From a virus, in the IMG/VR virus record IMGVR_UViG_3300031565_000430, positions 1 to 21,963 of that record: DNA of 21,963 nt; one strand, given 5' to 3'. Of this stretch, positions 2,315 through 14,523 are shown piece after piece. Position 1 is the first letter of the stretch. The number at the start of each line of letters is the position of its first letter. The translations under genes and the position numbers were made by a program. Under the pieces are notes generated by a model. That model worked only from the letters and a program-made list of their open reading frames with translations, had not been told where the DNA came from and did no database searches.

Positions 2315-2585
2315 CTCTTGCAACTTTGTTGTGAGAAACTTCGTTGCCATACTGAAACACGATCATGCACGAACCAATAACAAGCATTGGTTTATCTGCA
2401 CTGATTGTTATGAGGCCGACCTATGGCAAACAAGAATAAGCTCAAAGGAAGCTACCATGAAAAGTGGTTCGTGGACTGGCTCCAAAAGCTCGGCATCAAA
2501 GCGAAACGCCAGCCCCTCTCAGGAAGTTTGGGAGGAGAATATAGCGGCGACATCAAGCTCGAACTCTTCGGACTTGAACTGGTAG
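2271..2585 (+). CDS. Possible zinc-ribbon protein or 3' extension of the XRE gene
   Basis: This frame encodes CDSCNF and, 25 residues later, CTDCY, a convincing pair of CxxC zinc ligands with an HDH in between. The only start upstream of the first Cys pair is a TTG at 2271 inside the XRE gene, without a ribosome binding site. The last 55 residues overlap the nuclease gene out of frame and are serine-rich and low quality, so the true end may be earlier or the frame may be broken. A single-base slip in the A7 run at 2291-2297 joins it to the XRE frame. It could be an independent gene, a slippage product, or the trace of a frameshift. Confidence 0.35.
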   Translation: MATKSKLKKETAKCDSCNFVVRNFVAILKHDHARTNNKHWFICTDCYEADLWQTRISSKEATMKSGSWTGSKSSASKRNASPSQEVWEENIAATSSSNSSDLNW

Positions 2586-2761
2586 CCGAGGTTAAGTATC
2601 GGGATGCCAGCAATTTCCCAAGCCCCTTTTCTGTCTTAGAAAACAGGGACTTGGCACTATACAAAAGACGGAGGGGAACTCCGCAAACCTTAGTCATAAT
2701 CAGCGGCGAGACATTCGCCAAACTTATGGAGAACAGCAATGGAAAAGAACCTACTAAATAA
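2423..2761 (+). CDS. PD-(D/E)XK nuclease, Holliday-junction-resolvase-like (112 aa)
   Basis: The order of motifs fits a small PD-(D/E)XK endonuclease of the archaeal-Hjc/phage type: Glu13 in the first helix (SYHEKWF), a basic stretch KRQPLSGSLGG, SGDIK with Asp43, and AEVKYR with Glu56 and Lys58. Such enzymes cut branched DNA with a metal ion. In an early phage block it would resolve recombination or replication intermediates, fitting the nearby YqaJ/ERF pair. GAGG lies seven bases before ATG 2423. It overlaps the next gene by 23 bases. The exact substrate cannot be read from sequence. Confidence 0.75.
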   Translation: MANKNKLKGSYHEKWFVDWLQKLGIKAKRQPLSGSLGGEYSGDIKLELFGLELVAEVKYRDASNFPSPFSVLENRDLALYKRRRGTPQTLVIISGETFAKLMENSNGKEPTK

Positions 2762-3020
2762 ATTCAACGACTGGCATAGGGACAACCCGCAAGTATACGA
2801 GTTGTTCAAGCAATTTGCTTTTGAAGCAATCAGACGAGGTCACAAGCGCCTGTCTGCATGGCTTGTCGTTGGTCGCATTCGATGGGAAACTTCCATCATT
2901 ACACACGGCGATGATTATAAAGTCAGCAATGATTTCATCGCTCTGTATGCCCGAAAGTTTATGGCAGACTACCCCCAACACGAAGGCTTCTTTGCAACCA
3001 AGGAAATGAAGAGAGCCTAA
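2739..3020 (+). CDS. Conserved hypothetical phage protein (93 aa)
   Basis: A soluble, helical protein with the segment RLSAWLVVGRIRWET followed by DDYKVSNDFIALYARKF. From memory I associate this pattern with an unnamed family found next to replication genes in many proteobacterial phages. No catalytic motif is evident. GGAG lies five bases before ATG 2739, inside the nuclease gene. Its stop overlaps the initiator gene start as TAATG, so it is likely coupled to the replication initiator. Confidence 0.75.
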   Translation: MEKNLLNKFNDWHRDNPQVYELFKQFAFEAIRRGHKRLSAWLVVGRIRWETSIITHGDDYKVSNDFIALYARKFMADYPQHEGFFATKEMKRA

Positions 3021-3610
3021 TGTCCTTCGCTCACATGGCGTGGGCATGGAGCAACAGCATTGGCGATCCACTTGCCAAGCTGTTGCTTCTATCCCTAGCT
3101 GACCGCGCCGATAAAGAGACAGGTCAGTGCTGGCCGAGCCTTGGTCGCTTGGCACAAGACACAGAGATGAGCAGCGCAACCGTTGCTCGTAAGCTCAGAT
3201 ACCTAGAAGAACGTCAGCTAATCCATAGAACGCAGCGCAATGCGACCTCTACTTTATACACTCTACCCTATCTCACAGAGAGACAGGGGGTGTCTCACAC
3301 AGAGACAGGGGGGTGTCTCACAGTGAGAGACAAACCTATAAGTAATAATCTATCAGAGAATAATATATACTTCGAAGACTTCTGGTCGAAGTATCCAAGG
3401 AAGACTGGCAAGGGTCAGGCTCGCAAGGCATTCGACTCTGCTATGAAGAAGGCGACCCTCGCTGAACTGATGGATGGACTGGATAAGTTTGTCTCTTCTT
3501 CGCAGGGAACTGAGACTCGGTTCATTGCCCATGCTTCGACATGGCTGAACGGAGAGCGTTGGCTAGATGAATATGAAGCGGGGTGGCAAGATGTCCTCAA
3601 TGACCTATGA
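3020..3610 (+). CDS. Replication initiator, lambda-O-like (winged HTH plus C-terminal domain)
   Basis: Residues 15-80 form a winged helix-turn-helix of the HTH_36 type (CWPSLGRLAQDTEMSSATVA, then RKLRYLEERQLIHR). A flexible linker (about 84-117) follows, then a C-terminal region with FEDFWSKYPRKTGKGQARKAF and FIAHASTWLNGERW. The latter resembles the partner-binding part of phage O-type and primosomal proteins. In lambda, O binds iterons inside its own gene and recruits the helicase through P. Here the linker is encoded by three 22-23 bp repeats followed by AT-rich DNA, the same design. The start forms TAATG with the upstream stop. The role is well supported; direct binding to the repeats is inference. 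Confidence 0.8.
   Translation: MSFAHMAWAWSNSIGDPLAKLLLLSLADRADKETGQCWPSLGRLAQDTEMSSATVARKLRYLEERQLIHRTQRNATSTLYTLPYLTERQGVSHTETGGCLTVRDKPISNNLSENNIYFEDFWSKYPRKTGKGQARKAFDSAMKKATLAELMDGLDKFVSSSQGTETRFIAHASTWLNGERWLDEYEAGWQDVLNDL
3269..3336. repeat. Three iteron-like direct repeats inside the initiator gene
   Basis: Units start at 3269, 3291 and 3314 and are 22, 23 and 23 bp long. Each begins T(A/G)TCTCACA and carries GAGACA about nine to thirteen bases later. The second contains the dyad TGTCTC-acaca-GAGACA (3291-3307). The third contains TCTCAC-a-GTGAGA (3316-3328). The first two end in runs of five or six G. Spacing of about two helical turns is typical of replication iterons. Confidence 0.75.
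3337..3372. other. AT-rich DNA-unwinding element candidate (origin)
   Basis: These 36 bases contain only six G or C (30 of 36 A/T) and directly follow the iteron-like repeats. Together with 3269-3336 this is the expected layout of a theta-type phage origin embedded in the initiator gene. Confidence 0.6.
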
Positions 3611-4121
3611 ACAAAGAATGTCTGAACTCAAACTCTGGTTCAGCAAGGAGATCGCAACGCGGTTCACAATGCCGACAGGCATTGACCCCAAGCTATCCAT
3701 CACGGACACGCTCGACGCAGTAAACAATAACCTACCTCTGAACATAACGCAGGCGCAGATGCAGCACCTCGTCGCCTCCATAGCGAAAGAGGTGGTGCAA
3801 TCTGCGCGGACCAGAACCCTACCCCAACCCAAGGACTTTATAACCGCCGCCGCAAATGCCTCTAGGAGCTACAGAGAGGAGCCTACAGGGGCCGTCTCTA
3901 CCTTCAACGACTCTGGGCAGCTACGAAGAATAGAGCGGCTTATACGGGACAGAAAAGCGGTGCCGGAAAGCTGGCTTAAAGGTGAGCGCAGAAAGGAACT
4001 GCTTGCCGAGACCTCGGTAACGCTCAGTGATCTTGCCGCATACGACAAGACAATGGCTGAATGGATCACCGAGGAGGATGATTTCCTGAATGAGTCGCAA
4101 CCGATTCAGGAAGAGTATTGA
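3591..4121 (+). CDS. Hypothetical protein in helicase-loader position (176 aa)
   Basis: Follows the O-like initiator with a 20-base overlap, the place where lambda-like phages encode the helicase loader (P) or a helicase. The protein is soluble and mostly helical (SELKLWFSKEIATRF, then MQHLVASIAKEVVQSARTRT), with an acidic C-terminus. I see no Walker A or other ATPase motif. Starts at 3567, 3573, 3591 and 3600 are all in frame; 3591 has the best purine-rich upstream context (GCGGGGTGG). A loader function is positional inference only. Confidence 0.6.
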   Translation: MSSMTYEQRMSELKLWFSKEIATRFTMPTGIDPKLSITDTLDAVNNNLPLNITQAQMQHLVASIAKEVVQSARTRTLPQPKDFITAAANASRSYREEPTGAVSTFNDSGQLRRIERLIRDRKAVPESWLKGERRKELLAETSVTLSDLAAYDKTMAEWITEEDDFLNESQPIQEEY

Positions 4122-5911: not shown

Positions 5912-6433
5912 ATGCACAGAGAGGATATGTATCGCCAGCTTTTGGAGGGCGATGCACCAAAATGTAATGCGCGTATGCGTAAGGTAATGGACACTGACCC
6001 AACCTTTCACACAATGAACAGAAGCAAATCGACTGGCAAATTGGGTGGCAAACCCAAAATGCAAGAAGCTGCAAAGACTATGCTTCTTGATTCTGTTGAC
6101 AAGCACATGGTCGGTGATCTTATAATTGAAGCCGCCGCCAGCATAGTCGGAAAATCCAGAGATGACTTCACGGCTCACAACCAAAGCCAAGAATTCTTGA
6201 TGCCGAGGATGTGTGCTATGTGGATTATGAAAAATGTTGTCGGCCTTAACTACGTTCAAACCGGAGCCTTCTTCCACAGGAATGACAGCACGGCGAGCAG
6301 TGCAGTTAAGCGAGTAAGCGACCAGCTTGAAAAGCAACCGCTCATCAAGATGGTCATAGAGCAAATCCTAATTAAGTCAGGAGTCGAACAATGGATGAAG
6401 CATCCAATCTCGCACGTCTTCAAAAAAGACTAA
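5912..6433 (+). CDS. DnaA domain IV-like DNA-binding protein 1 (173 aa)
   Basis: Residues about 68-155 resemble the C-terminal DNA-binding domain of DnaA: a helix leading to FLMPRMCAMWIMKNVVG, then YVQTGAFFHRNDSTASSAVK, which corresponds to the DnaA signature xIGxxFGGRDHTTVLHAxRK. The key DHTTV motif is altered to NDSTA, so binding specificity may differ. There is no AAA+ domain. Such proteins could bind DnaA boxes, act as regulators, or interfere with host initiation. AGGA precedes ATG 5912, 13 bases after the terminator's T-run. A paralogue lies at 6864-7265. Confidence 0.65.
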   Translation: MHREDMYRQLLEGDAPKCNARMRKVMDTDPTFHTMNRSKSTGKLGGKPKMQEAAKTMLLDSVDKHMVGDLIIEAAASIVGKSRDDFTAHNQSQEFLMPRMCAMWIMKNVVGLNYVQTGAFFHRNDSTASSAVKRVSDQLEKQPLIKMVIEQILIKSGVEQWMKHPISHVFKKD

Positions 6434-6609: not shown

Positions 6610-6919
6610 AGATGACTTCTTAGACATGGCTGCTGAACTTATTAACGGAGAGCGGCAGGCAAACTATGGAGAAGCTACAGTAAACTTCTCAAGGCTGGCG
6701 CTAAGAATCAGCCAACACATCAACAAGAACATATCCTCATGGCAAGCTGCGCTTATCTTAGTTGAGCTAAAGATGGCCCGACTAGCCAACGGATACCATG
6801 AGGATTCAATCGCAGATGCCATTGGCTATCTCGCCTTGGCTGGAGAACTATGGGAAATCGAACATGAACTCGAAAGAAAAATTTCTGCTGTCATCAAGGC
6901 CGATATTTCAGGAAGCTAA
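6602..6919 (+). CDS. DUF6378-type phage protein (105 aa)
   Basis: The pattern NGERQANYGEATVNFSRLAL, followed by ALILVELKMARLANGYHEDS and ADAIGYLALAGEL, matches the small DUF6378-type phage family with its GxRxxxYG and KxARLxxGYHxDSxxDxxGYxALA motifs. Its role is not established. The conserved His/Asp/Glu residues hint at a metal site or a relation to nucleotide pyrophosphohydrolase-like all-alpha folds, which is inference. GGAGA lies just before ATG 6602, within the end of the coiled-coil gene. Confidence 0.75.
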   Translation: MRRDDFLDMAAELINGERQANYGEATVNFSRLALRISQHINKNISSWQAALILVELKMARLANGYHEDSIADAIGYLALAGELWEIEHELERKISAVIKADISGS

Positions 6920-7265
6920 TGCGCTGGTCAGCTCTGCCTCTGATCTGTCTGGCATGGAGCCGCATGAGATATGGAAGGACAGACAAGCTCCGCAGTTTAG
7001 GGGCAGAGCCATCGTCATGTGGATTCTGTATTACAATAAGAACTACTCGCTATTGCAGATAGGCTCTGTGTTTAATAGGGACCACACCTCTGTCATGAAT
7101 GCAATACGACGAGTGAACGGCTGGAGACTAAACAATATTAACTTCGTCAGGATGTGCGAGGTAATAGAGGAGAAAGCCTATGACTACCTATCTTACGATA
7201 CTGACGGTTTGCCTTCATGGCGAGTGCGTGAGCCTAGCGATGAAGAGCTATCAGGGGTGCGTTGA
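6864..7265 (+). CDS. DnaA domain IV-like DNA-binding protein 2 (133 aa)
   Basis: A strong DnaA domain IV match: SDLSGMEPHEIWKDR, FRGRAIVMWILYYNKN, then YSLLQIGSVFNRDHTSVMNA (DHTSV at residues 73-77) and IRRV. In DnaA this signature contacts the DnaA box. No ATPase domain is present, so the protein cannot act as a full initiator but could bind or mask DnaA boxes on phage or host DNA. ATG 6864 is preferred over an in-frame ATG at 6798 that lacks a ribosome binding site; the choice is not certain. It overlaps DUF6378 by 56 bases. Confidence 0.75.
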   Translation: MNSKEKFLLSSRPIFQEANALVSSASDLSGMEPHEIWKDRQAPQFRGRAIVMWILYYNKNYSLLQIGSVFNRDHTSVMNAIRRVNGWRLNNINFVRMCEVIEEKAYDYLSYDTDGLPSWRVREPSDEELSGVR

Positions 7266-11088: not shown

Positions 11089-11109
11089 AGCTATAAGCCT
11101 CTTCTATTT

Positions 11110-12233: not shown

Positions 12234-12532
12234 TAGACCGCGATGCTCCCTGCCATATCTTCTTGCGCCATGACCCAAGCATAGCACTTGTCGAGGAAGT
12301 TGCCCCCAGCCTGTGCCTCAACCTCAGTCAGATCGGCATGGTAGCGGCGGAAGTCCACCTCACGGGTGTCATCACCGGGCGTGGCAGTGGCATAGCCAGC
12401 GACATCAATCATCACGGTGAACTTGGGGCCACCCTCACGCATACGGTAGATGCTCGCAGTCACGATGCGGAAGTAAGCGCCGGCAAAGGGTGTTCCGTAT
12501 TGACTGTCAGTCAGGTCGAGTTGAATAGCCAT
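12233..12532 (-). CDS. Conserved tail-cluster protein (99 aa)
   Basis: Begins MAIQLDLTDSQYGTPFAGAY at ATG 12532, which overlaps the fibre stop as TAATG; the longer frame upstream to 12745 is a shadow of the fibre gene. The segments TVMIDVAGYAT and TREVDFRRYHADL, and the end CYAWVMAQEDMAG, recall a small conserved family encoded beside phage tail fibres. It is probably a structural or assembly component of the tail tip. Function unproven. Confidence 0.65.
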   Translation of the reverse strand: MAIQLDLTDSQYGTPFAGAYFRIVTASIYRMREGGPKFTVMIDVAGYATATPGDDTREVDFRRYHADLTEVEAQAGGNFLDKCYAWVMAQEDMAGSIAV

Positions 12533-14523
12533 TAGTATGTAACCTCCGAGGTGTTGATGGTGGCAACCCACCGAATGTTCGTAGCGGCAGCACCAGTGAC
12601 TTCGATCTTCAAGCCACCGTTGGTAGTGTCTGCGCTGAGAGCCATGCCCCAAGCGGGTGTGTTGTCCAAGACAGTCGTGGCGCTGTTGACCAGCACAGTC
12701 GTGCCTGCCGAGCCTTCCCTGCGGATCAGACCTTCGATCTTCCACGCTGCCGATGCAGTGCCTGCCGAGGCTTGCTGACGGGCCACGATGGTGCCGTGGA
12801 AGGCATAGGCAGAGTTGTTGGGGAGGATGATTTGGTTGGTGGTGCCACGTGTAGTGTCTGGCCCGTTAGTCACCATTGCCTCTGGCGTAGCATCCGTAGT
12901 GTCAGACCGCAAAACATAAATAGACGTTTGGCTGTCACCCTGACTGCTAATCCACTCACCGCTAAAAGCGAACTGACCTTCAATAGTCGTCTTGGCCCGG
13001 CGACCCAGTGCAGCAGAATACTTGGCACTGGCGTTAGTAGAATTGCCTATAGCAATCGCCCCGTAGCCAGAAGCAGAAGCGAACCCGCCAAGGCAATACG
13101 CATAAGTGCCAGTTGCTGAAGCATTCTTGCCTAATGCAACGGAATAAGCACCGCTTGCAATACAGTCATTCCCTACCGTTACGGCAGCTAGAGAACTTGA
13201 TTTATTGTCCTCACCAATGGCAACGGCACCGTTTGAAATAGCCCCATAAGAAGAGGTGCTGTCCCTGCCGATCACAGCAGCAAAGCAATTGGCCGCAGAA
13301 GCAAGAGAGCCACTCCCAAGCGCAACAGCATTATTACCCGTTGCAATTGGCGCAGTAGGGCTAGACGGGTTCTCAGCATACAGTTCTAGGGCGGAGCCAC
13401 CACCACCCGCAGCAATCCAGTCATAGTCCGACCCAGTCCACGACAGAACCTCACCAGTGGTGGCTGTGCCTGTGTTAAGGTGCGTGTCCACCAGAGGCTC
13501 GACGTTGGCTGCATCAGTTACGTCAGCGTTAGCCTCAATTCCAGAAAGTTTACTTGCCTCTGCTGCTGTATACCCTTGGTATCCAGTATCATAAGACACA
13601 GCAAGAGTGCCGGATGTAGTGATTGGCGAACCAGTGACAGTAAAGCCAGTAGGAACTGTGGCGGCAACGGAAGTAACACTACCAGACCCCTCCCCGTCTG
13701 CGCCACGAAGATCACCCGTGACAAAGCCCAGTCCATCGTCAGATGTAAATGTAACAATACCCGTCGAGGCATTGTAACTACCACCAGTCCAGCCAATACC
13801 ATCAGTGCCGTTAGTGCCGTTAGTGCCATCAGTGCCATCAGTGCCGTTAGTGCCGTCTGGGCCTGTAGCTCCTGTGGCCCCAGTAGCTCCTGTGGCCCCT
13901 GCGGGAATGCCAAAGTCAAAAGTAACAGTTCCATCAAGGGCGGTAGCAGCGGCTGTGGCAGGGGTGCCAGAGGCCAAGGTGGTAACAGTTCCGATAGCCG
14001 CATCAGTTACAATGTCAACGGCCTCGACAGCGCCAGTCGAGGCGTCGAAGGCAAGAACCTTACCCTTGCGGTCATTGATGTCAGACAGAGACAGGCTTGG
14101 CGCAACCTCATAGTCAGGAATCTGAATGGCGCGGCTGGCCTTGTCATCAACGTCAGCAATGAGGGCAATGATCGTGTCGAGTTGCTCGTTCAGCGCAGCG
14201 CGATTGATGTCAGAGCCAGCGTTGAAGTCAGTCGTGCGCTCAATGGGAATGTCACGGGTAATGACAACTTGGCTTCCACCAGTGGCACCAGTGACTTGCT
14301 GCACTTCACCCGGATCAGCTTCAACAAAGATGATCGAACCAGTCGATCCTTCGCCGCCAGTGACAGTGTAGTCAGAACCCTCGGCCTTGAGGACGCCATC
14401 AACGTAGACGTTTAGATCGCCAGTGTCAAAGAACTCAAACGGAACTGAGAAGGTCGTCTGAGTGACGCCCTGCGCTACCGCATACTCAATGCGTGGTGAG
14501 TTGTCTGCCGCGTTAATGGTCAT
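12532..14523 (-). CDS. Tail fibre: T7 gp17-like N-terminus, collagen-like repeat, YadA-like head repeats (663 aa)
   Basis: Residues 1-140 match the T7 tail-fibre attachment domain (FSVPFEFFDTGDLNVYVDG, GSDYTVTG, RDIPIERTTDF, LNEQLDTIIALI). Residues about 207-244 are Gly-X-Y triplets (GATGATGATG, GTDGTDGTNG), a collagen-like triple helix. Residues about 390-530 carry repeated YadA/trimeric-adhesin head motifs (NAVALGSGS, GAIAIGNST, YSVALGKNA). The C-terminus is beta-rich. All parts favour a homotrimeric fibre fixed to the tail and contacting the host surface. AAAGGG lies six bases before ATG 14523. The stop is joined as TAATG to a small tail gene. Confidence 0.85.
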   Translation of the reverse strand: MTINAADNSPRIEYAVAQGVTQTTFSVPFEFFDTGDLNVYVDGVLKAEGSDYTVTGGEGSTGSIIFVEADPGEVQQVTGATGGSQVVITRDIPIERTTDFNAGSDINRAALNEQLDTIIALIADVDDKASRAIQIPDYEVAPSLSLSDINDRKGKVLAFDASTGAVEAVDIVTDAAIGTVTTLASGTPATAAATALDGTVTFDFGIPAGATGATGATGATGPDGTNGTDGTDGTNGTNGTDGIGWTGGSYNASTGIVTFTSDDGLGFVTGDLRGADGEGSGSVTSVAATVPTGFTVTGSPITTSGTLAVSYDTGYQGYTAAEASKLSGIEANADVTDAANVEPLVDTHLNTGTATTGEVLSWTGSDYDWIAAGGGGSALELYAENPSSPTAPIATGNNAVALGSGSLASAANCFAAVIGRDSTSSYGAISNGAVAIGEDNKSSSLAAVTVGNDCIASGAYSVALGKNASATGTYAYCLGGFASASGYGAIAIGNSTNASAKYSAALGRRAKTTIEGQFAFSGEWISSQGDSQTSIYVLRSDTTDATPEAMVTNGPDTTRGTTNQIILPNNSAYAFHGTIVARQQASAGTASAAWKIEGLIRREGSAGTTVLVNSATTVLDNTPAWGMALSADTTNGGLKIEVTGAAATNIRWVATINTSEVTY
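13797..13906 (-). repeat. Tandem 9-nt repeat tract encoding collagen-like triplets
   Basis: On the coding strand, six units of GGCACT(AAC/GAT) follow two copies of an 18-base GGAGCTACWGGGGCCACA-like unit. They encode GTN/GTD and GAT triplets. Unit gain or loss by slippage would keep frame and change fibre length. Confidence 0.75.

Follow-up and report, generated by a model that had tools for sequence, protein, structure and literature searches.

We identified, inside a viral replication initiator gene, a palindrome array with an adjoining AT-rich stretch (positions 3269-3372) which, judged from the sequence, very probably represents a lambda-type replication origin located within the gene of its own initiator. 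The window, which is the whole stretch of DNA that was analysed, is a 21,963-base viral fragment from IMG/VR. A preliminary description had proposed a candidate origin in the initiator gene, and this proposal is supported by the relatives, by a blind de novo finder, by the lambda and P22 controls and by the AT-rich flank. The assignment to the lambda type rests on architecture and makes no claim of homology to lambda O, because a Phage_rep_O match to the initiator was not found in the Pfam search and hhalign of the initiator against lambda O and P22 gp18 gave a probability of 2%, at which homology is not detectable. The PHROG families named 'O-like' match the initiator, a family name which does not amount to homology to lambda O itself. 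This kind of origin is already known (lambda, P22, SPP1 oriL) and the window adds another member; new here is the breadth of the fixed array geometry among winged-helix initiators. The features of the region are:

3020-3610, plus strand: replication initiator gene (196 amino acids; HTH_36 and phrog_270 matches, AlphaFold model), encoding a winged helix (residues 1-85), a disordered linker (86-112) and a helical C-terminal domain (113-196)
3170-3208, plus strand: predicted recognition helix SSATVARKLRYLE, codons 51-63 (alignment to MarR-type regulators; modelled helix 52-64)
3269-3285, plus strand: iteron 1, TATCTC-ACAGA-GAGACA, one mismatch (sequence)
3291-3307, plus strand: iteron 2, TGTCTC-ACACA-GAGACA, perfect dyad (sequence)
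3314-3330, plus strand: iteron 3, TGTCTC-ACAGT-GAGAGA, one mismatch (sequence)
3314-3332, plus strand: iteron 3 in a reading with a 7-nt spacer, TGTCTC-ACAGTGA-GAGACA, perfect (sequence)
3337-3372, plus strand: AT-rich stretch, 30 of 36 bases A/T, proposed duplex-unwinding element (composition)
3567-4121, plus strand: overlapping gene, start possibly at 3600, candidate helicase-recruiting partner (synteny)

The initiator matches HTH_36 above the curated Pfam cut-off (E 3e-13, 49.6 bits versus a cut-off of 25), and phrog_270, annotated as 'replication initiation protein', matches residues 1-187 (E 1e-41) and thereby nearly the whole length of the protein. The primosomal protein family phrog_9327 matches residues 103-185 (E 3e-19). 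The AlphaFold model contains helices 41-48 and 52-64 and strands 69-72 and 78-81, which together form a winged helix. Residues 86-112, which are encoded by the repeats and the start of the AT tract, are disordered in the model (pLDDT < 50) and sit between the winged helix and the helical C-terminal domain. The array is therefore located between the DNA-binding and C-terminal domains, as in a lambda-type intragenic origin, and the HTH_36 and phrog_270 matches and the modelled linker confirm the earlier placement of the repeats in the linker-coding part of a winged-HTH initiator gene.

The iterons start 22 and 23 bp apart, which corresponds to about two helical turns, and the array of three is the only one of its type in the window. 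When the window was simulated 300 times with a first-order Markov model, only 3 simulations contained at least one two-unit array, and a triple occurred in the real window only. Three TGTCTC/GAGACA repeats of 22-23 bp had been described previously; the three units were found, with the correction that the left half of copy 1 reads TATCTC and not TGTCTC, and that 22-23 bp is the period and not the unit length, the palindrome being 17 bp long (19 bp for copy 3). Each unit is an inverted repeat, a shape suited to a dimer, as in lambda-type origins. The class of iteron plasmid origins was rejected, since these need direct repeats that bind initiator monomers, as opposed to palindromes binding dimers (PMC5043065), and the units of the array are palindromic. 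An alternative dyad register between the units (GAGACA-N5-TGTCTC, 3280-3296) was discarded, as the inner spacer hardly varies between families while the unit distance ranges from 21 to 25 bp. Iterons 1, 2 and 3 translate as YLTERQ, VSHTET and CLTVRD, respectively, and are not all in one frame. As the three copies lie in different reading frames, the constraint acts on the DNA and not on the protein, and the array repeat is a DNA signal.

The check proposed in the preliminary description, whether related phages have repeats at the matching place despite protein divergence, was performed on 24 relative loci. Those read out keep the repeats at the equal position with proteins down to 44-60% identical, as would be expected of lambda-type origins. 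The letters of the two half-site arms change in concert, with TGTCTC in L008, TGGCTC-like half-sites in L012 and L013, GGCTC in L019, GGCGC in L017 and TGTCGC in L020. Between L020 and L142, whose winged helices are 52% identical, half-sites are 100% identical and centres 30% (70% of the centre bases differ).

A de novo finder which is blind to half-site letters was run on linker DNA (score threshold of at least 22). Of 172 non-redundant winged-helix initiators, 117 had palindrome arrays in this DNA, versus 1 of 688 shuffles. Among 40 added initiator genes, 27 had arrays (2 of 120 shuffles). Many of the genes are close relatives of one another, and collapsing leaves 57 distinct winged helices whose units are clustered. 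An alignment of wide scope (A3) proved too diverse for use as a search query. The dyad spacer is odd in 114 of the 117 (5 in 63, 3 in 35 and 7 in 16), and 227 of the 237 unit distances under 40 bp are 21-25 bp, many spacings not being divisible by 3. About one third of the related genes lack an array above the threshold; unusual layouts escape the finder, and an array may be truly absent from some relatives. An array-first search with TGTCGC-N5-GCGACA gave 30 viral contigs with pairs, 28 of which lie inside an HMM-recognised winged-helix ORF and the remaining two inside ORFs judged by eye to be HTH-like; a control with the scrambled half-site TCTCTG gave one contig, on which an initiator was not found. 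With TGTCTC, the initiator profile recognised 6 of 11 viral contigs and 1 of 7 genome contigs, and matches outside recognised initiators occurred in L040, L041, L043-L046 and L049. The repeat family, reported as unfamiliar in the preliminary description, has counterparts, as at least three further lineages of initiators (L032/L039, L047 and L334) carry TGTCTC-N5-GAGACA arrays, among them nine consecutive units 22-23 bp apart in the initiator gene of Thiobaca trueperi (L047:4793-4988). An intragenic array with fixed geometry is a general arrangement among the winged-helix phage initiators examined.

The AT-rich stretch directly after the repeats, noted before as 36 bases with 30 A/T, was recovered at 3337-3372 and ties for the most A/T-rich 36-mer of the window; five of 21,928 reach this value, and those besides 3337-3372 overlap one another at 11102-11105. 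Averaged over the 57 genes, the A+T excess over the gene mean is +10 points in the 20 bp directly 3' of the arrays, +13.5 points in the following 20 bp and at most 3.5 points beyond 40 bp; on the 5' side the excess is at most 5 points. In lambda, binding of O opens an adjoining 40-bp A+T-rich region, and the 40-bp extent of the 3' excess across the 57 genes matches that region (PMC5043065). An AT-rich region of about 40 bp beside the repeats, as in lambda-type origins, is thus present as far as composition goes.

Lambda O and P22 gene 18 (gp18) served as positive controls and were both found blindly, with TCCCTC-N5-GAGGGA units 20 and 24 bp apart in lambda and TTTACC-N5-GGTAAA units at distances of 20, 24 and 23 in P22, matching the rep_origin annotation of P22 and three of the four iterons annotated in lambda. 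In TP901-1 rep, taken as a further positive control, the finder did not find an array of the 6-N-6 palindrome type, so some phage replication proteins are without one. The lambda iterons are 19-bp inverted repeats in gene O beside an AT-rich tract and are bound by O dimers (PMC5043065, PMC7466680). The earlier remark that the window mirrors lambda holds for the 6-N5-6 palindromic unit, the similar spacing (20-24 bp in lambda and P22), the place directly after the HTH-coding part and the AT-rich side located 3'; in addition, the initiator gene is in each case overlapped by the next gene. In contrast, the half-sites differ (TCCCTC and TTTACC versus TGTCTC), lambda and P22 have four units and the window three, the window initiator belongs to HTH_36/phrog_270 with no homology to lambda O detectable by Pfam or hhalign, and the downstream gene, which is P in lambda, is not recognisable as P in the window. 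SPP1 oriL likewise lies inside the gene of the origin-binding protein (gene 38, encoding the replisome organizer G38P) and consists of repeats plus an AT-rich unwinding element (PMC6316719), but its repeats are described as direct repeats and SPP1 has a second origin. A lambda-like putative origin has been noted in Francisella phage KIRK (PMC7924643).

Arrays are also present in replication genes of Pam5, ST15-VIM1phi2.1, D14B, MR13, 236O40-1, Madiba and 62501, and were not found above chance by the finder in those of AP22, Jamun and CheeseTouch, among others. In Pseudanabaena phage Pam5, Klebsiella ST15-VIM1phi2.1, Pseudomonas D14B and MR13 and Vibrio 236O40-1 the array likewise follows the DNA encoding the N-terminal domain, but with other half-sites (GGGTCA, TGCCAT, GTGCAA, TGCACG and GGTGAA, respectively) and partly other spacers; the examined stretches of these five carry no origin annotation. 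A literature search found no description of HTH_36 initiators with TGTCTC iterons, or of a correspondence between helix and half-site, which, as coverage of the literature was incomplete, is not proof of novelty.

Three other explanations for the palindromes were weighed. An improbable one is that they form an intragenic operator or roadblock, bound by the initiator, which mainly damps transcription of the initiator operon and is not an origin. The winged-helix fold of the initiator resembles that of ArsR/MarR/Fur repressors, whose operators are typically palindromic. However, the site is located 250 bp inside the gene rather than at a promoter, the promoter-like matches of the region fall below chance level, the AT excess beside the array is one-sided across the 57 genes, and the equal layout in lambda and P22 serves as origin (PMC7466680). 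Still less probable is a hairpin-type element (single-strand origin, recombination or terminator signal) that works as a folded single strand. Single-strand folding is somewhat better than in shuffles, but the z-score of -2.5 is expected because dyads fold by themselves; moreover, a terminator-like match was not found at the site, and the fixed two-turn spacing and AT flank suit duplex binding better. Least probable of all, selection on the linker peptide ..TERQGVSHTETGG.. with the DNA repeat as by-product would fit conspicuous peptide repeats such as SHGETPPVSHRDT in L047, but is refuted for the window by the frame argument, the copies encoding different peptides, and also disagrees with spacings that are often not a multiple of 3, with half-sites kept while the centre drifts (L020/L142) and with the predicted disorder of the linker.

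For the origin reading we propose the following mechanism. Winged-helix dimers of the initiator would bind the palindromes via helix 51-64; dimer binding is suggested by the palindromic units and by lambda O, which binds as dimers (PMC7466680). The bound dimers might wrap or bend the DNA, upon which the adjacent AT stretch (3337-3372) would melt, and the C-terminal domain, alone or together with the product of 3567-4121, could then recruit the host replicative helicase. For this last step, the role of the C-terminal domain is weakly inferred, as is that of the 3567-4121 product, which possibly also takes part. A disordered linker accepts nearly any peptide, and the gene can therefore carry the site at little cost; initiator and origin would travel together as a single cassette.

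The gene at 3567-4121 is conserved beside the initiator in relatives. A family or fold match was not found for it, and its identification as lambda P or G39P is not supported by the family and fold searches. In L008 the initiator (2501-3265) is longer, and its C-terminal tail resembles, by eye, the end of the window gene 3567-4121; a fusion or split relating the L008 initiator to the window gene pair is possible.

Comparison of recognition helices with half-sites gave a tentative match which is new here and without phylogenetic significance. We give somewhat less than an even chance to the idea that winged-helix initiators share one binding geometry and that, by a simple code, residue X (position 56 here) of the helix ..[A/S][T/S]V-X-[R/K].. 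determines the central pair of half-site bases (TC for A or C, TT for T and GC for K). Among ..TVXRKL.. helices, A or C at X occurs with TGTC, T with GTT and K with TGGC. At residue 51, S, G or A mostly occurs with T as the next half-site base, whereas G is the base found with N, H or D, a rule that fits 41 of 47 rows, the exceptions being the clade SVATVTRKL-TGTTGC and L131. Independent well-supported phylogenetic contrasts number only two to three, none of them contrary (sign test p 0.5), and because these are too few the code is put forward as a hypothesis. If it is true, origin specificity would be predictable from the protein sequence and could be re-set by one or two substitutions, so that single substitutions would make the correspondence testable. 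Mapped origins are rare for metagenomic phages, and the fixed geometry (6-N5-6 units 21-25 bp apart in linker DNA with a 3' AT flank) offers a way of placing the origin from sequence only, applicable to many tailed phages and prophages in which the initiator has no annotation beyond 'helix-turn-helix protein'.

The TGTCTC searches also returned arrays of other kinds. A Coleofasciculus contig and three viral contigs (L034, L036, L037 and L048) represent one cyanobacterial element with a 404-codon ORF, which has TGTCTC and related dyads after its N-terminal part and is without a Pfam (HTH) match. Chromosomal TGTCTC-N5-GAGACA arrays outside recognised initiator genes are located at L044:1435-1566, L043:4966-5003, L049:1096-1132 and L045:6088-6126, the one in L044 (Desulfobulbaceae) having six units with a 23-bp period.

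A 34,129-base contig (L050, G004) carries an identical initiator. It overlaps the window at both ends (L193 and L194; 1 mismatch in 12,702 bases and 0 in 9,261), which indicates a circular map of about 34 kb. At the window join 12702/12703, 689 bases of G004 are missing, inside a tail-fibre gene (12532-14523). The cumulative GC-skew on this relative, a further check named in the preliminary description, has a broad minimum, which in window coordinates lies at 1,102 after detrending and at 1,710 in the raw curve, 1.6-2.2 kb from the array and near but not at it. Genes in the window point rightward from about 0 to 8 kb and leftward beyond; as the minimum is broad and gene orientation alone can produce skew, the skew is merely consistent with the origin. 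Neither this check nor the one on the relatives refuted the earlier proposal. Perfect DnaA boxes were not found in the window, nor was any DnaA box found near the array. Two small proteins encoded on the plus strand (5912-6433 and 6798-7265) match Bac_DnaA_C, DnaA domain IV (E 1.7e-8 and 3.4e-8, respectively); both are without an AAA+ domain and thus represent stand-alone domains of the DnaA-box-binding type, two in one phage.
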